This document shows, piece after piece, positions 18,064 to 31,500 of a stretch of 40,722 nucleotides of DNA. Each line of letters starts with the position of its first letter. Position 1 is the first letter of the stretch. Under the pieces are notes generated by a model. The model saw nothing but the letters and a program-made list of their open reading frames with translations, was not told the DNA's origin and ran no database searches. A program made the translations under genes and the position numbers. The stretch covers positions 1 to 40,722 of the forward strand of contig JAGCFU010000004.1 in assembly GCA_017649945.1 (NCBI GenBank), written 5' to 3'. Origin of the DNA: Bacteroidales bacterium (GTDB lineage: Bacteria > Bacteroidota > Bacteroidia > Bacteroidales > F082).

Positions 18064-18111
18064 GTGAAAAATAAAATGCGAAGCAGTTTTTTGATTGCTT
18101 CGCATTTTTTT
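18064..18111. terminator. Strong, probably bidirectional terminator
   Basis: TGCGAAGCA (18077-18085), loop, TGCTTCGCA (18096-18104), with A/T extension on both sides and a T7 run on the plus strand. The A-rich left flank gives a T-rich tail on the minus strand, so it can also close the accessory operon arriving from the right. Confidence 0.9.
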
Positions 18112-18138
18112 ATGATAGACATAAGGGTTGTCATATAG

Positions 18139-18615
18139 TTAGGGCTGTATCTTATACCCTACATAAGCATGTAATGCGCGGTCGTATTTCAAAAGAATGT
18201 ATTCATCGTCATCATCGTGATCGTTAATAAACGAAATTATAACTGATATTACAAATACCGCAATCAAGAGTAAAATTATTATAAGAGTTAGCCAGACAAT
18301 AAACAATTTCGCAAAAATTGATATTAGAATATACATAAATTCACCTTCGTTATGAACTATCGACATGATTGCTGTTCCGACAAAACAAAGACCAGCAATC
18401 ACAAGGCAAATTGTTTGTGCTGTATTCAACGGATGGTCAAATCCACAGCACCAGGCAATGAATATTGCAATAGGGCAGGCTAGGAGCAGAGTCATATCCC
18501 ATCCGTTGGCTGTAAGGACTAAATCACCTCTATTGGATTTAACTTTTGCGATGATGTAGAAGACGAGTAGTATCAGGAAGACAACTCCTGCGATAATGAA
18601 GTTTTGATTGGGCAT
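18139..18615 (-). CDS. Membrane protein of unknown function, last gene of the tubulin-like operon
   Basis: A 158-residue protein with about four hydrophobic segments (residues ~7-24, 43-60, 67-88 and a long 94-128 stretch that could be two helices). An acidic HDDDDEY patch near 133 and a short soluble tail follow. I recognise no family. It is 12 bp after the preceding lipoprotein gene, so it is co-transcribed, and it is followed by the terminator at 18064-18111. Confidence 0.7.
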   Translation of the reverse strand: MPNQNFIIAGVVFLILLVFYIIAKVKSNRGDLVLTANGWDMTLLLACPIAIFIAWCCGFDHPLNTAQTICLVIAGLCFVGTAIMSIVHNEGEFMYILISIFAKLFIVWLTLIIILLLIAVFVISVIISFINDHDDDDEYILLKYDRALHAYVGYKIQP

Positions 18616-18627
18616 AAGCAGTTTGTT

Positions 18628-19593
18628 TTATGGTCTTTCCACATAATCGATATAACCGTCCTCTACCACCCAACCGACGCTTGATGTATCATGAGAACCA
18701 ACTACTACTGAGAACTTTTTCCATGTACCATTCTCAAGAACTTTTCCTCCAACTTCAAGTGCTCTTTCACAATTGTTCTCTAAACAAAATGACCAGGAAA
18801 ATGCGCCAAAATATACATGTGATTTGATGCAATCACCATAATATCCAGTCTTTATAATATACAATCCCTGTGATTGTATAAAATCGATGGTCCAGTCATC
18901 ATCATCAGGTAAGATGTATCGTATTTTTACAGTTGCATCAAAAGCTTTTCCAACCTCAGAAGTAAGCCGCATCTTGGCTATGAACAAATATTCTGTTTGG
19001 GTTTCTGATAGAGTATTTATTATATGGAAATCTGAAATCTCTTTTTCCGCTATAACCCAACGCCAGCTTGAAGGATAATAACCGTTATCGACACCTTCTG
19101 ATAATGAATGTCCGATAAGGTCTTGTTGAATCTGTTTGATGCTTGGTTTGGGAGGAATTATTGACTTTATGCATAATAACACCGTTGACGGAAGTTGGGT
19201 GTTGGTAAATGCGAAACGCACGGAGTTACTGAGATCGGAATCTATGGCATTGACGAATGCTGTGTTAAATTTTGATTGAGATTTGTTATTGCTGTAACTG
19301 TTTTTTTTATCAGCCGCATTACGATATATCTCATCTATTCCCAATGTGTAATTAGTGTTTGCTTCGGATTTGGCTGTATAATAAGCAGCTTTAGCAGTCT
19401 TGCGACTGTTGTAAGATGCTCCTTTGCCAAAATTTACATCTAGTATCTGCAAAACCTCAAGATATTCTTTGTTGCATTCGTTGACTTTTTTGCCCAATGT
19501 AGATCCGTCTTTTTCGGGTGAGGCACATGATAAAATCAGCATTGGACATAATGCAACGACTAACAATTTTTTGATAATTTCTTTTATTTTCAT
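18628..19593 (-). CDS. Predicted lipoprotein of unknown function
   Basis: A 321-residue protein with a lipoprotein signal (hydrophobic run ending LILSC, lipidated Cys23). Residues ~30-135 are Lys/Asn/Ser-rich and probably helical. The C-terminal half has WRWVIAEKEISDFHII and a mixed alpha/beta stretch ending YIDYVERP. I recognise no domain. The start ATG overlaps the end of the upstream gene by 4 bp (19590-19593), which indicates translational coupling. Confidence 0.72.
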   Translation of the reverse strand: MKIKEIIKKLLVVALCPMLILSCASPEKDGSTLGKKVNECNKEYLEVLQILDVNFGKGASYNSRKTAKAAYYTAKSEANTNYTLGIDEIYRNAADKKNSYSNNKSQSKFNTAFVNAIDSDLSNSVRFAFTNTQLPSTVLLCIKSIIPPKPSIKQIQQDLIGHSLSEGVDNGYYPSSWRWVIAEKEISDFHIINTLSETQTEYLFIAKMRLTSEVGKAFDATVKIRYILPDDDDWTIDFIQSQGLYIIKTGYYGDCIKSHVYFGAFSWSFCLENNCERALEVGGKVLENGTWKKFSVVVGSHDTSSVGWVVEDGYIDYVERP

Positions 19594-19898
19594 AAATCTA
19601 ACCCATCTATAAGAAAAACATGGTTAAACATGCCTATTGAAATATATTGTGTTTCGCCATCATGGGTTATGTGACCGATATTGAGAACAACATAATCGTC
19701 GATTTCAAACTGCAACATGGTTAGCTTTAGCCTGATTTTTTCACCAAAAGCATCTAATGAATTTGGATTTTCTTTATTTATCCTTTCGGTTAATTTGTTT
19801 TCAACCATTGTACGATGGTTTTCTTCTGTTGGTATTGTAATGTACATGATACCGGCTAAAACAGCTAAAATGATAATAGTACGAATGAGTGTTTTCAT
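19590..19898 (-). CDS. Small membrane-anchored protein, DUF4359-like
   Basis: A 102-residue protein with one N-terminal transmembrane segment (residues 4-22), then ITIPTEENHRTMVENKL and a C-terminal beta-rich tail YISIGMFNHVFLIDG. The order of TM, NPS/PTEE-type motif, helical middle and terminal glycine-aromatic strand resembles DUF4359, but the match is from memory and weak. It is 12 bp downstream of the large adhesin-like lipoprotein gene and overlaps the next gene by 4 bp. Confidence 0.65.
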   Translation of the reverse strand: MKTLIRTIIILAVLAGIMYITIPTEENHRTMVENKLTERINKENPNSLDAFGEKIRLKLTMLQFEIDDYVVLNIGHITHDGETQYISIGMFNHVFLIDGLDL

Positions 19899-19910
19899 AG
19901 TTTAATTTGC

Positions 19911-22013
19911 TTAATTTCCTGTTATAATTGTAATATCATCAATATCTAATACAAATTGGTCTGAACAATTAAAATGGCGTATAGCTATCCATATTGTTTG
20001 TCCGGAATATGAATTCAAATCAATGGTTTTCAAGTACCATGTTCCCTGTTCTCTATTCCCCCTTATAATCTCGCTCTTACCAGTTTTTGCAGAAAGAGTC
20101 TCTTCCCATATTGTAGTAAAACTGCTAGCATTAGGACTGGTTACGGTTGATATTGCGACACCATAGTGTTCTGCCGCATAATTTGCGTCTTGTGCACATA
20201 CGTAAAATGATATTCTTGCTCCTGCTGTTATTGTATATTTTTGTGGTGATACGAGGTAGTTGTCAGGGTATAAAACGAGTTGGTTATCGTTGTCGTACGA
20301 TTGAGACCCCATAGTATAAATGCTATTATTATGACCGATATTCCCATCTGACCCATAAAACCTTTTCCATGCATATCCATCACCATCTGCATCAATAGTT
20401 GTCCAATTTTCCCAGTTGCTTTCAAAAGAATATGAATATGTTTGTCCTCCACTTCCGTTTTTCGACAGTTGTACATCATCAACGCACATAATGTATTGGT
20501 CGTTACAATTAAAATGACGAATGGCTATATAAACATTTTGACCTGCGTAAGCACTTAGATTAACAGAGTATTGATACCACGTACCTGTTTTTGCGCCGTT
20601 ACCATTGCGTGAAGCCATACCACCATATCCTCCATCTTTGGCTGTTAGTGTCCATTCTTGAAGCATAGTAAATGCTGATGCTGTTGGTGTTGTCGTTGAA
20701 ATGGCGACTCCAAAATGATCTTCGGGATATTCAGCATCGCATGCCGCTGCCCAGAATGAAAATGTCGAACCGTTTTTAATGGAGACTAATGGTGTGATAA
20801 GATATTCATTGGGGGTTAAGGCTCCAACACCATTAATAAACGAGCCACTGCAAATAGCATTGCTACCTGTACGGAACCAATCAAGTGGCACGGTTGCATA
20901 ATATGTCCATGTTGTTGGAATATCGCTTGTCAAAGTCCATGTCCAACTATCGTTGTTAGCGTCAAGTATGGTCCAACCTGAAGGCATTCCAGATTCGAAA
21001 CCTTCAGAAAACTCTTCAACGGCACTGCCTCCGCCGCCACTTGTTGTGAAGGTTTTTTGTGTGCCATAAGATGTTCCAGCACTGTTTGTTGCATATGCTT
21101 TAACATAATATGTCGTGTTGGCACTCAATCCTGTTATTGTACTCGTGAACTGACCTGTTCCAGTGCCGTCGGTTGTGTGCTGGTTTGATATTGTCGGATT
21201 TCCGCTGGTATTCCAACATACTCCTCGTGCTGTAACAATGGCACCTCCATCTTTAGTGACATTGCCACCACATGTAACGGAATATGTTGTTACATTAGAA
21301 ACAGAAGATGTTGTAACAGTTGGAGTATTAACGCCTCCACCACCACTTGTTGTAGTGAAGCTTTTTTGTGAGCCATAAGATGTTCCATAACTATTAATTG
21401 CATAAGCTCTAACATAGTATTTGGTATTGATAGACAAGCCTGTAATATGACACGTAAACGAGCCTGTTCCAGTACCACTTGTTACTACATTGTCTTCTGT
21501 GGTTGGATTTTGTGAAGTGCTGTAGCATATACCACGTTGGATAATAGTCGCTCCCCCGTCGGAAGTTACATTACCCCCACATGTTGCTGTGTTTGAGGTT
21601 ACGTTTGTTGGCGTTGTCGTTGTTACAGTTGGCGTCGTTGCGCTACCACCTCCGCCTCCACCACTGTCTTTGTATAGCGCAATATCCTTATAATCATATG
21701 AAGATTTGCCAACACCTTTCAAATCTAATCTCTTGTTGTGATTTCCATCGTCTAAATAGAGATAATAGTTTTCGTTTAAATCGTCGAAAGTGACATCTAA
21801 TTTAAATGTACCGGTAACACCGGTATGAGTATTGGTGTATTCTTGGTTGCCATTTGTGACAACAACATTTACATTGTTTAGTGGCATTGACTGAGATTCC
21901 TCTATAACCCTTCCACTTAATATTGTTGTTACTTTTTCCATTTTCTTTACACAACCAATTAATGCCAAGATTGTAAAAAAAATAGATATTATTAATAATA
22001 GCGGTTTCTTCAT
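19911..22013 (-). CDS. Large multidomain lipoprotein: CarboxypepD-like domain, two FN3-like repeats, two choice-of-anchor-J/cleaved-adhesin domains
   Basis: A 700-residue surface protein. Lipobox LIGC gives lipidated Cys21. Residues ~30-115 form a carboxypeptidase-regulatory-like beta sandwich, followed by a six-glycine linker. FN3-like repeats lie at ~127-222 and ~228-325, each with ATCGGNV/VTCGGNVT, a GxGTGxF segment and TGLS...TKYYVRAYA, and each followed by a Gly-rich linker. Two copies of a jelly-roll domain (~335-520 and ~525-700) each have FES...W, a VAIST strand, GTWY and IAIRHFNC(N/S)DQ, ending in DDV/DDI. These are typical of cleaved-adhesin/MAM-like domains of Bacteroidota surface proteins. 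No type IX C-terminal sorting domain is seen, so the lipid anchor is the surface tether. Likely a ligand-binding or adhesive component of the operon's product. Confidence 0.85.
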   Translation of the reverse strand: MKKPLLLIISIFFTILALIGCVKKMEKVTTILSGRVIEESQSMPLNNVNVVVTNGNQEYTNTHTGVTGTFKLDVTFDDLNENYYLYLDDGNHNKRLDLKGVGKSSYDYKDIALYKDSGGGGGGSATTPTVTTTTPTNVTSNTATCGGNVTSDGGATIIQRGICYSTSQNPTTEDNVVTSGTGTGSFTCHITGLSINTKYYVRAYAINSYGTSYGSQKSFTTTSGGGGVNTPTVTTSSVSNVTTYSVTCGGNVTKDGGAIVTARGVCWNTSGNPTISNQHTTDGTGTGQFTSTITGLSANTTYYVKAYATNSAGTSYGTQKTFTTSGGGGSAVEEFSEGFESGMPSGWTILDANNDSWTWTLTSDIPTTWTYYATVPLDWFRTGSNAICSGSFINGVGALTPNEYLITPLVSIKNGSTFSFWAAACDAEYPEDHFGVAISTTTPTASAFTMLQEWTLTAKDGGYGGMASRNGNGAKTGTWYQYSVNLSAYAGQNVYIAIRHFNCNDQYIMCVDDVQLSKNGSGGQTYSYSFESNWENWTTIDADGDGYAWKRFYGSDGNIGHNNSIYTMGSQSYDNDNQLVLYPDNYLVSPQKYTITAGARISFYVCAQDANYAAEHYGVAISTVTSPNASSFTTIWEETLSAKTGKSEIIRGNREQGTWYLKTIDLNSYSGQTIWIAIRHFNCSDQFVLDIDDITIITGN
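21020..21660. repeat. Tandem DNA repeat of about 320 bp encoding the two FN3-like domains
   Basis: Two units (about 21020-21339 and 21340-21660) remain similar at DNA level, for example CCATAAGATGTTCCA and CCTGTTCCAGT occur in both at the same offset. Each unit ends in Gly-rich linker codons. Confidence 0.65.
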
Positions 22014-22032
22014 GGTAATATATTATTGTTGA

Positions 22033-23436
22033 TTAAAACGTTAAACCAAAATTAATCCCATAAGCAATAGATTGGTCATCAGTCATTACTGTTGGCATAA
22101 ATGCATAATGTCTTTCCTTGTTTTTTTTCGACAATGAAGCAACTCTGAAAATATGTATTGTATATATTACAGCGGCGGCGGACCAACATGCGATATTTAC
22201 GCCTCGCATAGTGTTATATTGCTTTAATGCCTTGTTATATTCATCAATGCCGACATTGCTTTTGTTCATAGTGTTTTTATAATTGTTTGAAAGCAGATAC
22301 GATATTCCTGCGCCACCTATAAGCAACACTTCGCTTGTTATCACAATAATGCCTTCTCCATTGCGATCAGCCTGAAACTCGCCCAATCCTGGGACAGCGT
22401 ATGACCAGAAATTGAAGTTTTTGGGAGGATTATAATCTTTTAATTGTACCAGATATGGCTTGTTTGGATCTTCTGTTCGTACTATTTGTTTCAGCCACTT
22501 TACATCACTATAATTGTTATGGGAAATTTTTATGTCGTATTTTTTGCTTATTTGATAATTTTTATCAAAATCAAGTTTCAAAGGTGCATCACCATTGCTT
22601 TTTGATAACTCATAGTAAGGTGTTTCATTCGCATAAACAGGTGTTCCAGATGTGTAAAATAACTCTGCACGCGCACCTTCCAGCGGTCTCCCATCATGTC
22701 CCTTAACAACAACTAATGCAACATTGGGTTTTCCTTTGGGTTTGTAATTGTATAATTTAACAACAATACTATCACCTTTTTTGATGCTTTTTGTTTGATA
22801 ATCTTCATAATCTTGATGTGAAATTTTGATTTGATAAGTTTTGTCAGATGTAAAAGTCTTGTCATCTCTAAATCTTAATGTTACAATACCATCTTTGTTT
22901 GACGATTCAATCTGCTTCTCACCGTTTATTGTATACTCCACATTTGCATTAAGCAGTGGAATGTTGTCTTTCCCACGGACAGCAACTTTTGCCATTTTTA
23001 GTTGCCTCTTTGGTTCAATTGTGTAATATACTTCTTCTTGTGCTTTTCTGACAAAAACTTCTTCTAATTCATACTTTTTATAACCTGGTGCTGTTATTTC
23101 AATTGTATACCCGTGCTTGAATTGGGCGTTCACTCCTTTAGTGTCGCCTTCAGTTAATGGTTGGACGCTTAAAATATATTGGTTGGCAGAAGCATTATGA
23201 CTGTTTTTTCTTAATCTTTTAGGCCCATTGGAAATTTTGAAACTTATATTCGGGATTGTTGTCGAAAAAATAATAACTCCGTCCTCAGGATTTGAATACG
23301 ATACATTTAATGGTATCAATACACTGCTTTTGTCTTTGTCTTTCGTACAAACAAATTCATTTATCGAACCGTTTTGCGAGAATAAAGGGCTTGAAAAAAG
23401 CAATGTTAGCAGTAATATAAATATTGTTTTCTTCAT
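22033..23436 (-). CDS. Exported protein with repeated PEGA/CarboxypepD-like domains and a DUF5683-like membrane tail
   Basis: A 467-residue protein with a signal peptide (cleavage near SPLFSQ, residue 21). There are three beta-sandwich units at ~60-140, ~147-230 and ~238-332, each closing with a YxIKISHxxYxDY or YTIEITAPGYKKYEL motif like PEGA or carboxypeptidase-regulatory-like domains. The C-terminal region (~343-435) starts FNFWSYAVPGLGEFQADRNGEG and has two hydrophobic helices, which resembles DUF5683. The last residue is Phe. It lies 1 bp after the NTF2-like gene. Family members sit in Bacteroidota envelope clusters of unknown role; I infer a periplasmic or outer-membrane scaffold. Confidence 0.72.
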   Translation of the reverse strand: MKKTIFILLLTLLFSSPLFSQNGSINEFVCTKDKDKSSVLIPLNVSYSNPEDGVIIFSTTIPNISFKISNGPKRLRKNSHNASANQYILSVQPLTEGDTKGVNAQFKHGYTIEITAPGYKKYELEEVFVRKAQEEVYYTIEPKRQLKMAKVAVRGKDNIPLLNANVEYTINGEKQIESSNKDGIVTLRFRDDKTFTSDKTYQIKISHQDYEDYQTKSIKKGDSIVVKLYNYKPKGKPNVALVVVKGHDGRPLEGARAELFYTSGTPVYANETPYYELSKSNGDAPLKLDFDKNYQISKKYDIKISHNNYSDVKWLKQIVRTEDPNKPYLVQLKDYNPPKNFNFWSYAVPGLGEFQADRNGEGIIVITSEVLLIGGAGISYLLSNNYKNTMNKSNVGIDEYNKALKQYNTMRGVNIACWSAAAVIYTIHIFRVASLSKKNKERHYAFMPTVMTDDQSIAYGINFGLTF

Positions 23437-23437
23437 C

Positions 23438-24433
23438 TTATTTTATATTAAAGTCACCAATAGAGAACCTTTCTTCTTCGGTATAATTAATCTTATTTCC
23501 ATTTTCGTCTTTGTCAGGCTGCCATGTTCTGACCCAAATACGTGGCTTGTTTTCATCACTGAAATCTATTACCAAAAACAATTCGCCGTCATCGCTATAT
23601 GTTGAGGATCTCCAACGCTGATTGAGTCTGACACCGTATGTTTTAGGATTAGCTTCGCTTTGAATGATTTGAATGTTCTCAAATTTGATGTTGATATATT
23701 CGTTTTTGTCGAATAGTTTCTGGAGATTTGCGAGGTATTCTTTTTTGTTTTTAATACTGTATTCAATTCTATAATCGTTCATTAGATTTCTTGACATTTC
23801 CTTGTTTGGGTCGACAGTAACAACTCGTCCTGTAATTATCAAAGCATCTTCACTGTAGATTTTTTCAAGATAGTCGATGTCTTTGTTGTTGTATGCGTCG
23901 CGGAAATGATCCACAAAGTTTTTTATCATTTCACGATGGCGTATATCTGTTACGTCGTTACTGTTTGTTATCACTTCTGTGTACTCATGCTCAGGTATCA
24001 TGCAGTAAAAATCGCTTATTTTCCCGGTATTGTCATATTCAATTACGACATGTTGGTTCCTGTAATCATCTTTACCATCCTTAAAAAATATAGGCACATT
24101 TCTAACTTGGTAACCAGAGCCGAATTTCATTACACGTGTAATCATGGTGGTTCTTGTGCAATAAAAATGGCTCACATTCCAAGTGGTCTGAATTCTTTCA
24201 ATGGCTTCTGGGGTTAGATTTTGTGCCGACAGTTTTAACTCGTTAGTCGCCCCATATGCCCGGTTTAACTCGGCAAATAATGAGTTTGTGTTGTTTTCCA
24301 TTATGCGCAACACATTTTCAGGAGCTGTTTCGCTGAATCTGAACTTTGTAGGGTGCTGTGCAAGAATTTGATTTGTTGCTAAGATACAAATTGCCACAAG
24401 CGCAATGATTTTGAAGAAATTAGTTGCTTTCAT
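23438..24433 (-). CDS. Exported NTF2-like (nuclear transport factor 2 family) protein
   Basis: A 331-residue protein with a signal peptide (cleavage after ILAQ, residue 25). Residues ~165-315 form an NTF2/SnoaL-like cone: IKNFVDHFRDAYNNKDIDYLEKIYSEDALI, KKEYLANLQKLF, then YGVRLNQRWRSSTYSDDGELFLVIDF and IWVRTWQPD. This is a recognisable Bacteroidota family seen with PEGA-like exported proteins. The N-terminal ~140 residues are a separate region without a known match. A ligand-binding rather than catalytic role seems more likely for a periplasmic NTF2 fold, but this is inference. It is followed within 1 bp by the PEGA-like gene. Confidence 0.78.
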   Translation of the reverse strand: MKATNFFKIIALVAICILATNQILAQHPTKFRFSETAPENVLRIMENNTNSLFAELNRAYGATNELKLSAQNLTPEAIERIQTTWNVSHFYCTRTTMITRVMKFGSGYQVRNVPIFFKDGKDDYRNQHVVIEYDNTGKISDFYCMIPEHEYTEVITNSNDVTDIRHREMIKNFVDHFRDAYNNKDIDYLEKIYSEDALIITGRVVTVDPNKEMSRNLMNDYRIEYSIKNKKEYLANLQKLFDKNEYINIKFENIQIIQSEANPKTYGVRLNQRWRSSTYSDDGELFLVIDFSDENKPRIWVRTWQPDKDENGNKINYTEEERFSIGDFNIK

Positions 24434-24446
24434 ATTTTATTAAGTT

Positions 24447-25160
24447 TTATTTCTGTTGAAAATATAATAAACTATAGTTGTTGTTTCTGTAATATGTTTC
24501 GGGATTCTTGATGATTTCACCAGTTATCATATCTTTACGGCTTGAATCTCCTTTATCAAGAAGAGCGCGGAGCATGCCGTCTGAAGAAAAAACAGCAATA
24601 ATGCATTGTCCCTTATTGTCAAATCCTTCTGTGCTGTTTAAGGCACCGCTTATATACCCGTTTTGTTTCAACACTTTGCTAACTTCTTTGTAGTTTTTGC
24701 ATTGTGCAATATGTTGCAAAACAGGATCCGCTATTGTATTTGAGCTTGCTTCTTTTACTTCTGGTTTTTTGTTAGCCGGTTTTTGCTCCACTTGGAGCTT
24801 CGGCGTTTGTTGAACAGGGCGTTTTGTTGTTATGAATACATTGTCTTTTGAAATCCAGGCAAGTATGCAAATTTCGCCTTCTTGTTGGATTCTGTCGAAA
24901 TGCACAGACATTTCAAGTTCTTTTAAGTCTTCTTTGTTTTTAATTGACTGGTTTAACACATCTTTAAGTATCTCGTCGCCAAGAGTGTTCAATGCGATGC
25001 TTTTGGCTTCGTTTTCATTGTTAGGGTGGAGACCTTCGGCCCAATAATAATTATCGGTTGTTTTTATTTCAATTTCGCGTTCTTCGGTGATGTATTGCTG
25101 CGCATATGTGAAGAGAGACAACAAAAATAATGCGATTGCAAATAGAATGTTCTTTTTCAT
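24447..25160 (-). CDS. Exported protein with LPP20-like N-terminal domain
   Basis: A 237-residue protein with a signal peptide (cleavage after TYAQ, residue 21). Residues ~30-110 (NYYWAEGLHPNNENEAKSIALNTLGDEIL ... ICILAWISKDNVF) look like the LPP20 domain found in many exported Bacteroidota proteins, with the typical eAk..A...L pattern. A Pro/Lys-rich linker (~112-140) leads to a small C-terminal domain (~143-230: VLQHIAQCKNYKEVSKVLKQ, GQCIIAVFSSDGMLRALLDKG). Function unknown. It is 13 bp upstream of the NTF2-like gene and 1 bp downstream of the 382-residue exported protein gene. Confidence 0.68.
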   Translation of the reverse strand: MKKNILFAIALFLLSLFTYAQQYITEEREIEIKTTDNYYWAEGLHPNNENEAKSIALNTLGDEILKDVLNQSIKNKEDLKELEMSVHFDRIQQEGEICILAWISKDNVFITTKRPVQQTPKLQVEQKPANKKPEVKEASSNTIADPVLQHIAQCKNYKEVSKVLKQNGYISGALNSTEGFDNKGQCIIAVFSSDGMLRALLDKGDSSRKDMITGEIIKNPETYYRNNNYSLLYFQQK

Positions 25161-25161
25161 A

Positions 25162-26310
25162 TTATTTGTCTTTTCCGAATAGTGTTTTTATATTATGTTG
25201 CGGAATGTTTGAATATAAATCAATATATATTTTTCCGCTGTTCATCAAATCGTCTAAAGTTGTAGAGACAAAAGCCATGTGTATAAATTCAGCATTTTTG
25301 TTGTATAATATCAGTGTTCCAGTAAGATGATCGTTTTCAAGTGATTCTATGCCGAAATATTTCTCATAATCTTGTGAAAAGAAGCCGAAAAAATCCTTGC
25401 TTGTCATCGTGTAGATTGATTTTTTGTAGCCGTACATCCAATGTTTTACTTCAATATAATAGTTTTGGGAAGAGGGTAGAAGCATGGCGTTTGAAAACGT
25501 CAACGCCACGTATGAAGTGTCAAAAACAGGAGTATAAATGGTGTCGTTTTTAATATAAAACAAGTCGCCGTTTATTTGCGGTATTACAAAATTTTCACCC
25601 TTTTCAACATAAACACTGTCGCTTACAATGCTGTCGTTACTATAATATTGTAAATAGCTTGGTCTCAAATACATGGAGTTATTAGTGTTGCTTGCATAAT
25701 AATTGCTAAGTTGTATGGCAAGTTTTATTTCCTGCTCCTTTTTGCTCATGCCGCTTATAAAACAGCAATCTGCCTTAAATATAAACGTGAGGTTTTTATT
25801 GTTTGAGCATAGTATTGTAGCTATGTAGTTGTTGTCTCTTCGGTTGATAATTGTGCCGTAGTTATTTTTCCATAGGTCGAAAAACCACGATTTGTTGTCG
25901 AGTGAGTCGGCTGGTATATATTTGTCGTCCAATAAAATATACAATTGGTCGTCGTCGTTTGTTTTTATGGTTTCCTTGGCGTCGTTGGATAATAGTATTG
26001 ACAAAAGCTCTCTTTCAATAAATTGCGTTACGGGTTTGTTGCCAATTAATATAGAGTCGTAAAGGAATTTGCATCCGATATGTTCAATAACATTGTTTTC
26101 ATCTTTGCATATTGTTATTGTAACAGTATCGCCCAAAACCAATTCTGTACATGGAAAAGAATAGTTGTTGGATGGTATTGAATCTATTTTGCAGATATTG
26201 TTCAAAGAGTTGAATAAAACTTCTGTTTTATTTGAATAAAACAGCTCTTGAGCATTACAAGCGAAGTTCGATAATAAAAATATTATTCCAAAGACATATT
26301 TCTTGTACAT
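25162..26310 (-). CDS. Exported protein of unknown function (382 aa)
   Basis: A signal peptide (residues 1-21, probable cleavage at CNAQ) precedes a long soluble region of mixed alpha/beta character rich in Asn, Asp, Tyr and Ser. Recognisable only as exported. A Cys stands at residue 18 but the preceding SNFA does not fit a lipobox well. Segments such as NKEYLL... are absent, so I cannot assign it to any domain family. It is the first gene after the hairpin-containing gap at 26311-26403 and is 1 bp from the next gene, so it opens the distal half of the operon. Confidence 0.6.
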   Translation of the reverse strand: MYKKYVFGIIFLLSNFACNAQELFYSNKTEVLFNSLNNICKIDSIPSNNYSFPCTELVLGDTVTITICKDENNVIEHIGCKFLYDSILIGNKPVTQFIERELLSILLSNDAKETIKTNDDDQLYILLDDKYIPADSLDNKSWFFDLWKNNYGTIINRRDNNYIATILCSNNKNLTFIFKADCCFISGMSKKEQEIKLAIQLSNYYASNTNNSMYLRPSYLQYYSNDSIVSDSVYVEKGENFVIPQINGDLFYIKNDTIYTPVFDTSYVALTFSNAMLLPSSQNYYIEVKHWMYGYKKSIYTMTSKDFFGFFSQDYEKYFGIESLENDHLTGTLILYNKNAEFIHMAFVSTTLDDLMNSGKIYIDLYSNIPQHNIKTLFGKDK

Positions 26311-26336
26311 ACGATTACGATAATGCTATAGTAGAA

Positions 26337-26387
26337 ATGGAAGGTTCCTCCTAAAAGAAGATTTCTGTTTAAGAGAAACCTTTCCAT
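26337..26387 (-). promoter_or_regulatory. Long hairpin within the operon, in the 93-bp gap between genes
   Basis: ATGGAAGGTT (26337-26346) pairs with AACCTTTCCAT (26377-26387) with one bulged base; the stem extends inward through CTC/GAG. The T-run precedes the stem on the minus strand and only a weak T-stretch follows it, so it is not a standard terminator. It may be a processing site, an attenuator or an RNA stabiliser for the distal genes. Confidence 0.5.
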
Positions 26388-26403
26388 AAAAAATGTCAAA
26401 ACA

Positions 26404-27132
26404 TCATTCTTTGCTTAAATCATACGGATTCGGTCGTTTAGGCGCGAATATTTTTCCTTTTAGAACATTGTCCTTGCTGTATAATGCGCCGTTTACGATG
26501 TCGCCGTTGCCCCAAGTGCCAATGAAGTAGTCACCTTCTTCAGCATAATGCGGCGGATTTTTTTTATCATGCTTCGCTATCTGCATGTGTCGATAGTAAT
26601 ACATTGTGCCACTACCTTCGGGGATGTCTTTTTTTGCATCACCGACATACTTTCCAAAGGAATATTCAATTACATTAGTGATTATTACAGGGGGTTCCTC
26701 TATTATACGAATAGTGTCTCGTGGTTTTTCCTTATTAGTATCAATTAAAACCTCTTCCTGTTGATTCGTGCCATTTTTTTCGCTAGTTTGGGCTGGGTCT
26801 TCACCAACGATGGTGTCCGCTACAAGAGGCATTTTAGGCGATGTTTGATCATTAGATCCCTGTTTTTCTACTAATCTATTATCGCCAGAAGGTTCTTTAA
26901 CAGTCTTTTTAGGAAGTGTGAGGCATAATACGATTACAATGGCAACCACTGCTACAGATGCTGCAATCATTGTGATTTTATGCTTCTTGAACCATGATTC
27001 ACCTTTTGTATATTCGACAAGCCTTTTGCCGCATTTCGGGCAGACAAATTCCTCACCGTCAGGTATTTCGATGATTTTCTTTTTGTTTTCATCGAAATTT
27101 GGGCAATCCCAATTTGTGCAAATACCTTTCAT
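26404..27132 (-). CDS. Zinc-ribbon, single-pass membrane protein with MORN-like C-terminal region
   Basis: A 242-residue protein. The N-terminal zinc ribbon has Cys5, Cys10, Cys31 and Cys34 (GICTNWDCPN ... FVCPKCGKRL). One transmembrane helix (~53-73) follows, then a disordered acidic linker (~75-160) and a C-terminal region (~165-235) with FGKYVGDAKKDIPEGSGTMYYY and a GDYFIGTWGNGDIVNGALY segment, like MORN repeats. The predicted topology is zinc ribbon in the cytoplasm and MORN-like part outside. That makes it a natural adaptor between the cytoplasmic tubulin-like protein, whose gene is 11 bp upstream, and the exported proteins. Similar zinc-ribbon/MORN proteins occur, as I recall, near Bacteroidota Ser/Thr-kinase and phosphatase clusters. 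Confidence 0.75.
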   Translation of the reverse strand: MKGICTNWDCPNFDENKKKIIEIPDGEEFVCPKCGKRLVEYTKGESWFKKHKITMIAASVAVVAIVIVLCLTLPKKTVKEPSGDNRLVEKQGSNDQTSPKMPLVADTIVGEDPAQTSEKNGTNQQEEVLIDTNKEKPRDTIRIIEEPPVIITNVIEYSFGKYVGDAKKDIPEGSGTMYYYRHMQIAKHDKKNPPHYAEEGDYFIGTWGNGDIVNGALYSKDNVLKGKIFAPKRPNPYDLSKE

Positions 27133-27143
27133 TTCAATAGATT

Positions 27144-30100
27144 TTAATCAGTTAAACGTTCTTTGTCTCTATCTAAGATTTCCTTGGCAGGATCTTTGGC
27201 ATCGACAAACTTTTCCCAGTCGTGTTTGTTCTTTGCGCATTCTTTTTTGACAGCCTCACTTGTACTTCCATCGATTTCAGATTTTAATGATTCTCTCTTT
27301 GATCTGGACAGGTACTCTCCGGTGTTTAGTTTGTTTTCGACCATAGTACGAATCATTTCTGCGTCTTCCTCGGTGATGTTTTCAACAACATTGCGGAATG
27401 TCTGGTGCTTCAAAGAAGTTTTCTTTTCATTATCAATGTAATACACCTTTTGGTTGCCATAGCCTTTACCTTGGAAGCCGTATTTGATTAAACCCATCGA
27501 CATTGCTAATATTAAATAAGGTGAGAATTCTTCTTTCTTGGTATCGTCCCATGTCTCAGGATACAGTGATGGAAACTGTGAGCCATCGCCTTCTGTATGT
27601 AGCAATAGTTTGTGCTGTTTCTCATTGATATCAGTCAACTTTTCTTCGTAGTCGTTTTTCAAACGATTTACATCAGCGAGGTATCTTAATGGGAATCCTC
27701 CGGTCATGGATAGAATTACTATTTCGTTTGATTTAAAGTTCTCGGCTACTTCAACTTCGCTGCCAACTGTTTTGCTGAATTGTTGTTTGAATTTTTCACT
27801 GAAGTTTGTTGTGTCTTCGTATTTTGGCAAAAGCAGTGCATATTCGATGCGTAACCCATCTCTCGATGATCCCTTGTTGATTTGTTCTTCATTTTTTTGA
27901 ACCAACACGCTAGCGAGTTTAAGCTTGTCTTCAATGAATTTGCCAAGACCTTCGTCGTCGCCGTTGTATTTATTGGCAATTCTCTCCATTATATTGACTT
28001 TTACCTGTTTCTTTTGTTCGCGCTCCATTGCTGCTGTTGCACTGTCAGCGCAAACATCTTCAAACATGTTAATCAATATCTGGGTGTTCGAGATCTTGTT
28101 TACCATCTTTATGAAGTCAGGATTCTCATCGTGAGTTTCTTCAATGAGTCTCTTTCTCACATTCAAGGCATTTTCTTTGTTAACACGGTCGTCGCGCATT
28201 ATTTTCTTTGTCTTGTTCTTGACATCGTCTGGCGAATACATCTTATAAGTAATGATACCATTGCCTTCAGTTGTGGTGTCTTCTGTCTTACAGCGGGCAC
28301 TGATGGCGATGTCCATCTTGTCTAATGATTCGGTCAGGTATTTCTTGAAAACAATGACGATGTCTCTTAGCTCTCTCAGGTTTTCATTAACCTTGCGGAG
28401 TAGGCTTTGTGCGTAATCAAGACCAAGTTCTTCGGTCATTGTTTCATATTTGCGTTTAAGCAAATCGCAGTGGGTGCCTAATATCTTGTCCAGGCTTGTC
28501 AAAACACCTCTCTTGTTCCATTTTGTTCTGTTTTCAGCAATATTAGGTTCAATTGTGTCTTTTAATTCCTGTCTCTTCTTCTGTTGTTTCTCACCGAGTT
28601 TTTCTATGCGATTTTCGTTGACATCAATAAGTGTTTGAAGATACTTTTCGACTTCAACAATAGATTTGTTGCCGTTTTCCCAATCTTTGAATAAATCGTG
28701 TTCAATTAATCCGCATATTACGCTTGCATAACCTTTTAATTCTTCTTTCTGATTGCGGAAGAAATCATTAACACCAACTCCACGGAAATCTTCTTTATAG
28801 CGTTTTGTGCAAAGCTCCTCGAGTTCGTCCAAACGGTCTGTTTTTGGTTTCTCAGAGGCTATTTTCTTAAATTGACTAACCCTGTTCCAGTCTTCTTTAT
28901 ATGTTAGCCAAGGGTTTCTATTATCATCTACAATTTTTTGTGATAATGTAAGATGTTCTTCGTCAATTCGCCATTCGGGGAATTTGCCGTTGCGATCATT
29001 ACGCAAATCTGCTGCATAACCCAAACCGATTTCATCCTCTGGTTTTTCAATAAAGCCTAAATCACTCCAGTTGTTGTATTTAAACTGAAGCATAGCTTGT
29101 TTTGCAAAATTGTATTGGACGTATTCCCTGATTTCCTTTTCGGGATATTCAATTCTTCCAATACCAAATGAGATGAAGCGCTTGCTTCTCGTTCCTTCTT
29201 CGTGGTTGGCATCACCGTTTTCATTTTGTTCAAGACGTTGTAATTGCGTGTTGCCGACACGATGTATTGTTATGATTTTGTGATATAAAAAGTCCGCTAC
29301 AACTTCAAACAACTCGCCATTTGCCACGTCGAGAAAACCACCATTGACATTTGCATTTGCAAAAACGTATGTGCTATTGAATGCTTCAACACCTCGGTCG
29401 GTCATCATGCGTTTTACTCTCTGTGTCTTCGCTTCTTTGCGTCCTTGCACATCGTATGGGCAATATGCTTTTACGCTCAATGCGTTAAGTTCGAGCAATG
29501 CGGCATAACCATTTGGTTTGTAATAGCCGGTATTAGAAACCCAACCATGTGGTGGTGGTGTGGCCGTCTCAGGAAGTTTAGCGTAAACGATGATTTTATC
29601 ATTTGGGAATTCCTCTCTGATTTGTGTTATAACATCAATAATACTACCACTGCCAGTTCCTCCTGCAAGACCTGTTACTATATGGAATGTTATATTAACG
29701 TTGTTTGAACTTCTTTGCAGATTGGAAACATGACTGCCAAGTTTCTTTTTAAATTCGTTGATATTCCATGCAAACAGAAGTCTTCCAAGGCGACGACGCT
29801 GTCCTCCTGCCTCATCAGTAATACCACCTTTTATATGATCCCATGTTTGCTTGTCGCCAATCCACGGGCTGATACCTGGATAATCTTCAATTCTGTCAAG
29901 AATAGATGATGTGGTCGCATTAATCTTCACCTTGTCACCTGGGTCAAGTGCAACGCTCTTACCCATTGTGCGCCATGATTGTGTTTCATTCAAGTCTTTT
30001 TCAGATGAATCTACCCAAAGGTATGATACAGCAACCTCCCTCATTGAATCGTTCGGAACGTTGTTGCTTCTGAATTCTTCATAAACTCTTTTGCGAAAAG

Positions 30101-30155
30101 CACGGATAATATGACCACCAGTGCCGCCTAATCCGATAATTAAATGGTTTTCCAT
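27144..30155 (-). CDS. Large tubulin/FtsZ-superfamily protein (Tubulin_2-like)
   Basis: A 1003-residue protein with a tubulin-type nucleotide-binding domain in the first ~330 residues: GLGGTGG at 8-14 (T1-like loop), YLWVDSSEKDL at ~45-55 (T2-like), TDEAGGQRRRLGR at ~113-125 (T3-like), and the tubulin signature GGTGSGS at 165-171 (T4) after a HIVTGLA strand. A GYAALLELNAL helix follows near 220. A catalytic T7 loop is not clearly identifiable. The remaining ~650 residues are largely charged and helical, with coiled-coil-like stretches (~480-700: EKLGEKQQKKRQELKD and others), and end KERLTD. No TM or signal, so cytoplasmic. It matches large tubulin-like proteins in bacteria predicted to act in membrane remodelling. 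First gene of the operon. Confidence 0.85.
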   Translation of the reverse strand: MENHLIIGLGGTGGHIIRAFRKRVYEEFRSNNVPNDSMREVAVSYLWVDSSEKDLNETQSWRTMGKSVALDPGDKVKINATTSSILDRIEDYPGISPWIGDKQTWDHIKGGITDEAGGQRRRLGRLLFAWNINEFKKKLGSHVSNLQRSSNNVNITFHIVTGLAGGTGSGSIIDVITQIREEFPNDKIIVYAKLPETATPPPHGWVSNTGYYKPNGYAALLELNALSVKAYCPYDVQGRKEAKTQRVKRMMTDRGVEAFNSTYVFANANVNGGFLDVANGELFEVVADFLYHKIITIHRVGNTQLQRLEQNENGDANHEEGTRSKRFISFGIGRIEYPEKEIREYVQYNFAKQAMLQFKYNNWSDLGFIEKPEDEIGLGYAADLRNDRNGKFPEWRIDEEHLTLSQKIVDDNRNPWLTYKEDWNRVSQFKKIASEKPKTDRLDELEELCTKRYKEDFRGVGVNDFFRNQKEELKGYASVICGLIEHDLFKDWENGNKSIVEVEKYLQTLIDVNENRIEKLGEKQQKKRQELKDTIEPNIAENRTKWNKRGVLTSLDKILGTHCDLLKRKYETMTEELGLDYAQSLLRKVNENLRELRDIVIVFKKYLTESLDKMDIAISARCKTEDTTTEGNGIITYKMYSPDDVKNKTKKIMRDDRVNKENALNVRKRLIEETHDENPDFIKMVNKISNTQILINMFEDVCADSATAAMEREQKKQVKVNIMERIANKYNGDDEGLGKFIEDKLKLASVLVQKNEEQINKGSSRDGLRIEYALLLPKYEDTTNFSEKFKQQFSKTVGSEVEVAENFKSNEIVILSMTGGFPLRYLADVNRLKNDYEEKLTDINEKQHKLLLHTEGDGSQFPSLYPETWDDTKKEEFSPYLILAMSMGLIKYGFQGKGYGNQKVYYIDNEKKTSLKHQTFRNVVENITEEDAEMIRTMVENKLNTGEYLSRSKRESLKSEIDGSTSEAVKKECAKNKHDWEKFVDAKDPAKEILDRDKERLTD

Positions 30156-30212
30156 GTTATAGACATTTTAGTTAATTAGTATTTGCATAAGTTGAGTGTA
30201 AAATACACACCG

Positions 30213-30243
30213 CAAATTTATGCATAACATATTAAAAATCAAA
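30213..30243 (-). promoter_or_regulatory. Promoter of the tubulin-like operon
   Basis: On the minus strand TTTG (30243-30240), exactly 19 nt, then TAAATTTG (30220-30213): a full match to TTTG-N19-TAnnTTTG. The start codon at 30155 is 57 bp beyond the -7 box. The gap 30156-30417 otherwise holds only the repeats at 30344-30394. Confidence 0.8.
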
Positions 30244-30343
30244 GCATTACACTTCTACTTTTATTATCGGAAAATATGAAAATAATTATAGGAAAACTGA
30301 TAAGATAATTTTGTTTTTTGGGGGCTCGGTCCATATCAAGATC

Positions 30344-30394
30344 TTAAAGTATACTTTTAAAAAACAAATAAATATTTTAAAGTATAGTTTAAAA
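30344..30394. repeat. Two TTAAAGTATA direct repeats in palindromic settings, operator candidates
   Basis: TTAAAGTATA occurs at 30344-30353 and 30377-30386, start to start 33 bp, about three helical turns. The first sits in the palindrome AAAGTATACTTT (30346-30357). The second sits between arms TTTTAAA and TTTAAAA (30375-30394). They lie between the HTH gene and the promoter of the tubulin-like operon, about 100-150 bp upstream of the latter. Confidence 0.6.
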
Positions 30395-30417
30395 TAATAT
30401 AAATTTTTATGAATAAT

Positions 30418-30660
30418 TTATTTTCTCCTCTGCTCCTCAAAATGCTCCGAACATCTTTTGAAAAAGTCATAATCCAAAGCATCGCTTATTTTGAAAAGCA
30501 ACGGCATCGTAATCCATTGCTGGTTGAAAACTTTGTAAAGGTTCTCAGGTGTGCAGTTCACCTGTTTCGCTAACCATGTGGCCGTGCGTCCTTGTCTCGC
30601 AAGCTCCTGCTTGATGAGCTTACCAAGATGGAAATCGTCGGGTGTTGCCTTGTTTTTCAT
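30418..30660 (-). CDS. Small helix-turn-helix protein
   Basis: An 80-residue protein with an XRE-like helix-turn-helix: HLGKLIKQELARQGRTATWLAKQVNCTPENLYKVF at ~10-45, followed by ITMPLLFKISDALDYDFFKRCSEHF. This type, with a C-terminal DFF..CSE motif, is common in Bacteroidales as a stand-alone regulator of unknown target. The start ATG overlaps the TGA of an upstream small frame as ATGA (30657-30660). It may regulate the adjacent tubulin-like operon, though it could equally be an independent regulator. Confidence 0.8.
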   Translation of the reverse strand: MKNKATPDDFHLGKLIKQELARQGRTATWLAKQVNCTPENLYKVFNQQWITMPLLFKISDALDYDFFKRCSEHFEEQRRK

Positions 30661-30823
30661 GTTGCCTGACTTTCAAGAACCTCCATCTCTTTCAAGCAAC
30701 AAAAAAGGCGTTCCCTGTTTTGCCACTTACCGCTATTGAAGGCGTCTGGAAAAGCCTGTGGGTCGATAAGCACCAACAGTTCACGCCTAAAGACGTGAAC
30801 CTTCCCGACTTATTCTGACCCAT
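30657..30823 (-). pseudogene. Small frame upstream of and coupled to the HTH gene; start lost or frameshifted
   Basis: From 30809 to the TGA at 30657-30659 a frame of 50 codons reads with coding character (VLIDPQAFPDAFNSGKWQNR, then ERLFCCLKEMEVLES) and ends in an ATGA overlap with the HTH start. It is closed upstream by TAA (30810-30812) and has no ATG; GTG or TTG around residues 12-13 are possible starts. An ATG at 30821-30823 opens another frame, which one single-base change near 30803-30805 would join to it. It is either a small protein with a rare start, or a one-base frameshifted gene or sequence error. Function unknown. The rest of the 30661-30960 gap holds no other gene that I see. 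Confidence 0.5.
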
Positions 30824-30921
30824 GTTAGTTTTCCAGACTTCTCAATAGGAGAACAAGAGCGTAAAGTTCTGTTTTTTTTAGTTTATTTTAAAATATTTTT
30901 TAACGATTTTTCATCGCACTG

Positions 30922-30929
30922 CAAAGATA
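30922..30929 (-). promoter_or_regulatory. -7 box of the HTH gene unit
   Basis: TATCTTTG on the minus strand, about 260 bp before the HTH ATG and about 100 bp before the candidate ATG at 30823. This distance agrees with an additional small gene lying between promoter and HTH gene. Confidence 0.45.
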
Positions 30930-30960
30930 AAGAAAATTTACAAAGGATAAAATTAAAAAC

Positions 30961-30990
30961 AAAAAAAGATGCCATTCGGCATCTTTTTTT
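30961..30990. terminator. Bidirectional terminator after the lipocalin-like gene
   Basis: AGATGCC, loop ATTC, GGCATCT, flanked by A7 on the left and T7 on the right, giving a 13-bp stem counting the A/T flanks. It begins at the stop codon of the lipocalin-like gene and insulates it from the HTH unit. Confidence 0.9.
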
Positions 30991-31405
30991 ATTCAAAAAC
31001 TTTGTTATAAGTTCCCTTATAGGAAGTCTGTCCCATGTTGGGCGCTCCAGGGAAGGAGTCGCCGCTGATTGTTATCTGGTTTTCCGTCAGGTCTTCGATT
31101 TTGAACTTGGCAGTATTGTTGCTTGCCGTGATTTTTAAAGAATTACCTGACAAACTCCATGTAAATGGTACGGGGTTGCTGATCTCTGTGATTTCGATAA
31201 CACCTGTGCCGTCGGATATTATCTCGATCATAACGTCAAAATCATATGTCTGACCATTAATAATATGGTGTATCGACTGCCATTTTCCGTAAAGCATGGT
31301 CTCGTCGATTGATTCGTCTGACGCTGAGTCTTTCTTTGAACAAGCGGCAAGTATCATCGACACTGCGATAAACAATGTCATTATTTTCATAGTGGTGTTT
31401 TTCAT
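30989..31405 (-). CDS. Lipocalin-like lipoprotein
   Basis: A 139-residue lipoprotein (start ATG 31405; MKIMTLF at 31390 is an alternative). Lipobox LAAC follows the hydrophobic run. Residues ~35-139 (LYGKWQSIHHIINGQTYDF ... SYKGTYNKVF) resemble the short lipocalin-like beta-barrels of Bacteroidota, with the G-x-W opening motif. A longer frame starts at 31471, but it would begin upstream of the -7 box at 31436-31443, so I reject it. Single-gene unit with its own promoter and terminator. Ligand unknown. Confidence 0.78.
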   Translation of the reverse strand: MKNTTMKIMTLFIAVSMILAACSKKDSASDESIDETMLYGKWQSIHHIINGQTYDFDVMIEIISDGTGVIEITEISNPVPFTWSLSGNSLKITASNNTAKFKIEDLTENQITISGDSFPGAPNMGQTSYKGTYNKVFE

Positions 31406-31435
31406 GGCTGAAATTTTTATTGTTAAATCAGAATG

Positions 31436-31443
31436 CAAAGATA
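31436..31443 (-). promoter_or_regulatory. -7 box of the lipocalin-like gene promoter
   Basis: TATCTTTG on the minus strand, 30 bp before ATG 31405. It directly follows the terminator of the upstream ppiD-like gene. Confidence 0.5.
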
Positions 31444-31445
31444 AT

Positions 31446-31475
31446 AAAAAATGGGGGAGAAGCAGCTTCACCCCC
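31446..31475 (-). terminator. Terminator of the ppiD-like gene
   Basis: On the minus strand GGGGG (31475-31471), a mismatch, GAAG/CTTC inner stem, mismatch, CCCCC (31457-31453), then ATTTTTT. It lies 25 bp past the stop codon. Confidence 0.85.
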
Positions 31476-31500
31476 AGATTTTTTTAACGTTTGATGTCTC

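Follow-up and report, generated by a model that had tools for sequence, protein, structure and literature searches.

Giant tubulin-like proteins of the Pfam family Tubulin_2 (PF13809) correspond to the FtsZl1 family of Makarova and Koonin (PMC2875224). In the parts available to us of that paper and of a later one (PMC9871819), the functions of FtsZl1 proteins are predicted only, and the latter leaves them out of its trees. The locus described here lies in a 40,722-nucleotide stretch of DNA from a gut Bacteroidales bacterium (assembly GCA_017649945.1, contig JAGCFU010000004.1), referred to below as the window, and consists of ten open reading frames (ORFs), O1 to O10, all on the minus strand between positions 18139 and 30155. 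As in the FtsZl1 loci presented in the available text of PMC2875224, a giant tubulin-like protein (O1) with the family's signature loop is encoded in a membrane-associated operon, and both a kinase (locus L124, which has no tubulin) and an OmpA domain (L066) occur in relatives of the window's system. The window differs in its zinc (Zn) ribbon-transmembrane (TM) connector, O2, and in its exported set of O3, LPP20-like and NTF2-like proteins, and it lacks a VWA protein and a P-loop GTPase. None of the FtsZl1 partners (VWA, a diverged GTPase, OmpA) was found by Pfam among the ten window proteins, as a first-pass annotation made from the sequence had already remarked.

The closest printed precedent appears to be the tubulin-containing conflict systems of the GAP1-N2 class (Kaur et al. 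2020, available part of PMC7159879), which are likewise membrane-proximal and combine tubulin with Zn ribbons and extracellular PEGA or NTF2 domains; they also include FGS effectors and, in some, a kinase with a Zn ribbon. In contrast to the window, those systems are reported mainly from other phyla, whereas here the Zn ribbon sits on a single-pass MORN connector and sister operons exchange the tubulin for a TIR domain or a kinase. Set against the GAP1-N2 features, the tubulin of the window is firm, its Zn ribbon is recognised by conserved Cys, its NTF2 match is below cut-off, and PEGA is present in relatives only. No TRAFAC or P-loop GTPase family was matched by Pfam among the ten proteins, and GAP1 gave no match in Pfam, NCBIfam or PADLOC, where no GAP1-specific model was identified. 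ThsB-type TIR proteins offer a third comparison, confined to sister operons and not applying to the window: the TIR part of L122 scores 1.4e-9 to the ThsB models of PADLOC, but unlike these proteins it is joined to a TM segment and MORN, next to genes for exported proteins. No paper describing this gene set was found in the open-licence literature. Families B1-B9 of PMC2875224 may already include parts of the set; the word 'zinc' is absent from the main text of that paper.

Results

The first five genes of the operon (O1-O5) recur as a unit of fixed order around a single tubulin clade, their connector has modular relatives, and the operon that carries them is a mobile cassette. ORFs were scanned with Pfam, NCBIfam and PADLOC 2.0.0, signal peptides and TM segments were assigned by hydropathy and by eye, and the genome sets were sampled draws, capped at 2000, in which many genomes look metagenome-assembled. 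A profile search of the ORFs around long tubulin matches recovered O1-O2-O3-O4-O5 in this order in nine distinct loci (the window, L003, L005, L033, L068, L075, L077, L080 and L082), from genomes spanning at least six families (f1, f26, f27, f81, f128 and f146); L061, the same contig as L003, and L004, 99.6% identical to L003 over its length, were not counted as separate loci. Departures from the pattern comprise an O2 split into two ORFs in L005, a 134-amino-acid (aa) ORF between O2 and O3 in L033, a second, partial O5 in L077, and a C-terminally shorter tubulin in L082. Incomplete members of the clade are L076, whose O2 is truncated by the end of its contig; L086, which breaks off within the tubulin and is a second, identical copy within L077's genome; and L066, where the contig runs on for ~950 bp past an O2-type gene and ends with no O3, and which may lack the rest of the unit.

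In a tree of 35 tubulin rows (37 tubulin ORFs minus L004 and L061), the 12 core tubulins form one clade with a support of 100/100, and the core-clade label changes once on the tree versus 10.2 times in shuffles (0/500 as low). The other 23 rows had no O3-O5 in the stretches fetched. Across the 393 genomes of the order draw, O3 was present in 15, Tubulin_2 over cut-off in 16, and both in nine (hypergeometric p ~9e-11, relatedness ignored). Seven of these nine genomes carry both genes in one operon; in G800 they are on separate short contigs, both broken within the set (L076, L130), and in G920 the tubulin belongs to another clade and is on a different contig from O3 (L083, L129). O3 was found without a tubulin match in G057, G674, G702, G851, G852 and G914. 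The first-pass annotation had named as a test whether tubulin, zinc-ribbon and NTF2 genes are recurrently linked in distant genera, and this linkage is borne out, in nine loci and one clade. Its view of all ten genes as one system is not, and a conserved ten-gene unit was rejected: among the loci fetched, the ground covered for O7-O10, O8-O10 are confined to the window, L003 and L004, and relatives of O7 outside this group are found only in L033 (two, at the operon end) and L084.

O1 scores 184.4 bits against a Pfam cut-off of 27 for its N-terminal Tubulin_2 domain, which settles its predicted place in the tubulin superfamily. Its signature loop reads AGGTGSG; GGTGSG is invariant in 11/11 aligned clade members, and the first G of the GGGTG(S/T)G given for FtsZl1 in the available text of PMC2875224 becomes A or S. 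An ordinary tubulin/FtsZ domain gives a separate strong match (155.6 bits) elsewhere in the window's genome, so O1 is probably not a division protein. The family is patchy, being matched in 14/173 genomes of the same GTDB family (13 over cut-off), 20/393 of the order draw (the 16 above over cut-off) and 13/395 of the phylum draw (10 over cut-off).

Directly downstream of the tubulin, O2 combines a putative Zn ribbon, one TM segment and a MORN-like domain, an architecture proposed at first pass. The MORN-like part gains support from L122, whose homologous C-terminal domain matches MORN over the Pfam cut-off (5.8e-6), and the Zn ribbon is read from four near-invariant Cys, library matches being weak. 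In tubulin-free loci, genes of related design carry other N-terminal domains: a TIR-TM-MORN gene precedes O3 in L122 and O5 in L134 and L135 (Pfam TIR_2 at 3.5e-14, 4.6e-6, just under cut-off, and 7.6e-9, respectively), and a kinase-TM-MORN gene (Pkinase, 4.7e-28) precedes O3, O4 and O5 in L124. The C-terminal domains of O2 and of the TIR and kinase connectors align, with seven invariant columns among 11 sequences. O2 belongs to a type of bridge whose cytoplasmic end is exchangeable: a Zn ribbon, a TIR domain or a kinase stands before TM-MORN.

TIR and kinase domains work in the cytoplasm. A hydropathy scan detected one TM segment in each of 14 connectors with a cytoplasmic end, and likewise in the window's O2; in those 14, the K/R count before the TM segment equals or exceeds the count after it. 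Because the TIR and kinase ends of like connectors are cytoplasmic, the Zn ribbon of O2 should lie inside and its MORN domain outside. This predicted topology draws on the domain swaps and on one split gene: in L005 the connector is divided in two, and the MORN half starts with a segment that looks signal-like by eye and went unflagged by the hydropathy scan at its threshold. O2 likely spans the membrane and connects the cytoplasm with the exported proteins.

Outside the MORN-bearing forms, a protein with PBP_like_2 and OmpA domains follows the Zn ribbon and TM in the clade member L066, and a TPR region follows them on a Paraburkholderia megaplasmid (O2 profile, 3e-9) and in L070, a tubulin locus that does not belong to the clade. 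Among the 23 other tubulin rows, a gene combining CxxC with a TM segment immediately follows the tubulin in L070 alone; the small CxxC proteins of L067 and L071 have no TM segment. There is a hint that the Zn-ribbon-TM connector may be older than its MORN version. As separate observations, the Zn ribbon-TM-PBP_like_2-OmpA gene (L066:5354-6916) lies directly 3' of a core-clade tubulin in another part of the phylum, and the megaplasmid locus (L158:11923-16831) runs from an unannotated FtsZl1-like gene through Zn-ribbon-TM-TPR and a probably exported 237-aa protein to a TM2 protein.

Signal-like N-terminal segments were seen by eye on O3, O4, O5 and O6, only part of which the hydropathy scan flagged. 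No convincing PDB relative was found for O3, and the O3 and O5 profiles gave chance-like matches to PDB sequences. The first-pass calls for these proteins fared unevenly. The LPP20 likeness of O4 holds, weakly but consistently (PDB LPP20 4kzs, E 0.028; LPP20 at 2.5e-8 in the ~610-aa fusion relative L131, which also matches the O5 profile at 2e-57); the NTF2-like call for O5 comes down to a Cds6_C match below cut-off; and the PEGA/DUF5683-like call for O6 fails in the window, where neither family is matched, PEGA being found in other proteins at position 6. That position is variable: PEGA is over cut-off in L080, an FGE-sulfatase occupies it in L077, weak CarboxypepD_reg matches occur in L075 and the window, and no family was matched in L068 and L082. 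The genes 3' of the TIR operons encode PEGA (L122) or FGE-sulfatase (L134, L135) proteins, and that of the L124 kinase operon a histidine phosphatase family protein; the tubulin-free operons share MORN and O5, with O3, O4 or PEGA/FGE in part.

O5 is present in 51/393 genomes of the order draw. In 20 regions chosen from the longer O5 list, plus L131-L133, 17/21 fusion-length O5 ORFs matched the O4 profile, and a PEGA or FGE-sulfatase gene lay within ~6 kb of 14/21 fusion ORFs versus 0/23 non-core tubulin anchors. These exported ~610-aa LPP20-NTF2 fusions, with PEGA/FGE-sulfatase genes beside 14 of the 21, were noted in L131, L132 and L159-L178. Separately, ~700-aa exported proteins followed by O3 and O5 were seen in L123, L125, L126 and L127, with Sel1 repeats in L123, the one scanned. 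Judged by these comparisons, the exported proteins appear to be a general module within the order, with tubulin as one of its couplings.

The operon is a mobile cassette, a point absent from the first-pass annotation. Of four genomes compared, two from the same genus (L154, L155) have an empty site, with SurA followed by DegT at ~150 and ~350 bp; L156 stops at a contig edge and L157 has different neighbours. Between the window and L003, identity jumps from ~70-80% to 98-100% at both cassette edges, and synonymous divergence (dS) is 1.2-2.1 in six flanking genes compared versus 0-0.76 in the operon genes. Inside, the comparison is mosaic, stretches of 99-100% identity alternating with stretches near 72%. 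Integrase- or att-type boundaries were rejected: the identity changes sit at the SurA end and in the DegT end, and no integrase family was matched among the insert proteins scanned, the nearest signal being a weak, below-cut-off match of the helix-turn-helix (HTH) protein to the HTH domain of resolvases. Spread by homologous exchange through the flanks is the preferred, sequence-based explanation. Phage origin was likewise rejected, with no relatives of O1 in the viral_contigs or phages searches, none of O5 in an alignment search of viral_contigs, and weak PHROGs matches (0.0065 on O1, 0.0066 on O9, and 1.1e-4 for the HTH protein to a repressor family; O7 and O8 left out). So was plasmid carriage, O5 having no plasmid relatives and O1 one among 72,556 records, the Paraburkholderia megaplasmid.

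In L060 (genome G150), the site of the cassette is occupied by a Tubulin_2 operon of another kind, whose further genes include one for a papain-type protein of 1188 aa, one of AbiEii type and one for a glycosyl transferase. It shares the HTH gene (homologue at the same place, 5e-44) and the promoter with the window, at 79-82% identity over 30435-30863 and 30212-30320; homology stops at the -7 element and the promoter pattern is preserved. This is a single case of one regulator gene and promoter standing before two different tubulin operons.

Several further arrangements were observed around these loci. The operon type of L060 (L060:3701-13272) recurs in the same genus in L035, L058, L063, L064 and L065, making six loci by similarity (Pfam on three), and consists of two exported or TM proteins of ~290-370 aa, a tubulin of 912-978 aa and a papain-family peptidase protein of 1164-1203 aa with TM. 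In L074:5644-13508, a 1145-aa protein has as its neighbour a Tubulin_2-like protein of 512 aa that is highly diverged (5.9e-6, just under cut-off), and a relative of the window's HTH protein lies upstream. Within the cassette, before the HTH gene, a lipocalin-like ORF (30989-31471) differs in length from that of L003 and is possibly a frameshifted or degraded copy. In L080, from another family, the core operon (L080:362-9230) lies at the opposite end of the CoaX-FadL-TPR-LptC-CNNM-SurA run that flanks the window's operon. L004 is a 12-kb contig in a metagenome-assembled genome called 'archaeon'; it holds only this bacterial operon (99.6% identical to L003:9951-21899), starts 50 bp before the tubulin and ends ~200 bp after O10. 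It is probably misbinned, and the assembly perhaps breaks at the cassette edges.

The features of the window are collected in Table 1. The tight spacing reported at first pass was recovered by ORF calling, with intergenic gaps from O1 to O10 of 11, 93, 1, 13, 1, 19, 12, -4 and 12 bp. The promoter it had placed at the head of the operon also stands: the pattern TTTGN{18,22}TANNTTTG has 7 matches in the window versus 1.47 expected (0/100 shuffles reached 7), and the operon promoter is its sole match on the operon strand within 18139-30243. A sigma-70 type scan was at chance level (56 found versus 44.5 expected) and was not used. Among the accessory genes, the adhesin-like lipoprotein call for O7 proved correct, and the DUF4359-like call for O8 was dropped, its match falling below the Pfam cut-off (16.7 bits versus 27, 0.012).

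Table 1 Features of the cassette and its surroundings (positions in the window).
Feature	Position	Strand	Basis
O1, Tubulin_2 / FtsZl1-like, 1003 aa	27144..30155	-	Pfam Tubulin_2 (PF13809), 4.7e-54
O2, connector: Zn ribbon (C5, C10, C31, C34), TM (53-71), MORN-like domain	26404..27132	-	Conserved Cys, hydropathy, alignment
O3, probably exported, 382 aa	25162..26310	-	Conserved in 9 loci
O4, exported, LPP20-like, 237 aa	24447..25160	-	Profile; fused to O5 in ~610-aa proteins
O5, exported, NTF2-like, 331 aa	23438..24433	-	Cds6_C 7.1e-5, below cut-off
O6, probably exported, weakly CarboxypepD_reg-like, variable position	22033..23436	-	Shr-like_HID just over cut-off; CarboxypepD_reg below
O7, lipoprotein with two Cleaved_Adhesin and fn3-like domains	19911..22013	-	Cleaved_Adhesin 1.3e-62; lipobox by eye
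O8, 102 aa, one N-terminal TM segment	19590..19898	-	Hydropathy; lineage-specific in loci fetched
O9, 321-aa, lipoprotein-like	18628..19593	-	Lineage-specific in loci fetched
O10, 158 aa, four TM segments	18139..18615	-	Lineage-specific in loci fetched
Operon promoter, Bacteroidota-type TTTG-N19-TAnnTTTG, here TTTG-N19-TAAATTTG	30213..30243	-	Conserved 5' of different tubulin operon in L060
HTH regulator-like ORF, 80 aa, upstream of promoter	30418..30660	-	Pfam HTH_7/HTH_3 weak, below cut-off
Inserted cassette, ~13.4 kb, between DegT and SurA	18117..31498		blastn against L155: homology ends at 18116, resumes at 31499
Terminator-like hairpin just 3' of DegT gene, common to both sides	18073..18108		Identical hairpin sequence in L155 empty site

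Discussion

We read the operon as a mobile, modular trans-envelope signalling or conflict system in which tubulin is one of several outputs, a reading to which we give an even chance and whose protein contacts, signalling direction, GTPase activity and biological role we infer. Signalling with interchangeable cytoplasmic outputs is suggested because operons of related design exist without tubulin, and because O3 and O5 occur where no cytoplasmic partner was found. In such a system the exported O3, O4 and O5, together with a variable partner (of PEGA or FGE type in several relatives), would form a periplasmic or outer-membrane ensemble sensing a ligand or some condition of the envelope. Its signal would be received by the MORN-like domain of O2, on the periplasmic side, and O2, as a single-pass inner-membrane connector, would use its cytoplasmic Zn ribbon to recruit or switch O1. 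The cytoplasmic output would be O1 itself, probably through GTP-driven assembly or disassembly; in the sister operons its place would be taken by a TIR domain or kinase joined to a connector of this kind. The likely role would be envelope surveillance, stress response, or conflict with phages or other bacteria. More tentatively, the locus may represent an undescribed class of trans-envelope receptor, in which a conserved periplasmic ensemble (O3, LPP20, NTF2, PEGA/FGE) signals through a single-pass MORN connector to an interchangeable TIR domain, kinase or giant tubulin-like GTPase assembly, with tubulin cassettes swapped behind a fixed regulator and promoter.

Several observations weigh against the signalling reading. 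The TIR- and kinase-MORN loci are few, four in all, and a MORN profile run on a draw of 188 genomes gave six strong matches, all of them profile seeds, and so no independent case; no unlinked strong copy was seen in that draw, and eight weaker matches (1.8e-4 to 8.3e-4), which resembled generic MORN repeats, were left out of the count. O3 and O5 lack a recognised cytoplasmic partner in L123 and L125-L127, so that the ensemble may have an envelope function of its own. Five of the nine core loci (L033, L068, L075, L077 and L082) have a three-TM gene 5' of the tubulin (similarity clear among L068, L077 and L082, weak for L033 and L075); the window has none, so further components may belong to the system. 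Long branches, including L080, drew a warning from the tree program. The one PADLOC match among the ten proteins, to PDC-S43 on O5 (0.019), carries no weight, and a known anti-phage defence system was rejected on this negative. According to the available text of PMC2875224, FtsZl1 proteins have no identifiable T6-H7 elements, which makes polymerisation of O1 uncertain.

The first-pass annotation had proposed a trans-envelope machine in which a cytoplasmic polymer organises surface proteins. Its trans-envelope half agrees with the connector described above. The other half, a structural rather than signalling role in which a tubulin polymer positions or drives surface proteins, the adhesin O7 included, through O2, is possible and in our judgement unlikely: a Zn-ribbon TM connector does adjoin the tubulin and O7-like adhesins are also found at the L033 end, but O7-O10 fall outside the recurrent unit and the tubulin-free operons are left unexplained. 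A simpler reading is available, since TIR or kinase connectors accompany the same kind of exported set in genomes that have no Tubulin_2 match. A membrane-remodelling or vesicle system, as Makarova and Koonin proposed for FtsZl1, fits the Tubulin_2 membership of O1 and the OmpA domain on the connector of L066; the absence of VWA and GTPase from the ten proteins, and the recurrence of the envelope proteins where TIR or kinase replaces tubulin, make it a doubtful candidate. An envelope homeostasis module, in which an LPP20-NTF2-PEGA scaffold on peptidoglycan or the outer membrane has tubulin, TIR and kinase attached for unrelated regulation, would suit the PEGA/FGE genes near the O4-O5 fusions and is improbable given the strict gene order, single clade and island-like mobility of the tubulin version.

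If the more tentative receptor reading holds, the tubulin would act as an effector of immune or stress type under control from the periplasm. Its replacement by TIR or kinase on the same kind of connector would place tubulin among bacterial signalling effectors. The sister operons would then be natural chimaeras for probing the direction of signalling, and the O2 connector is a concrete idea that can be checked with two proteins.

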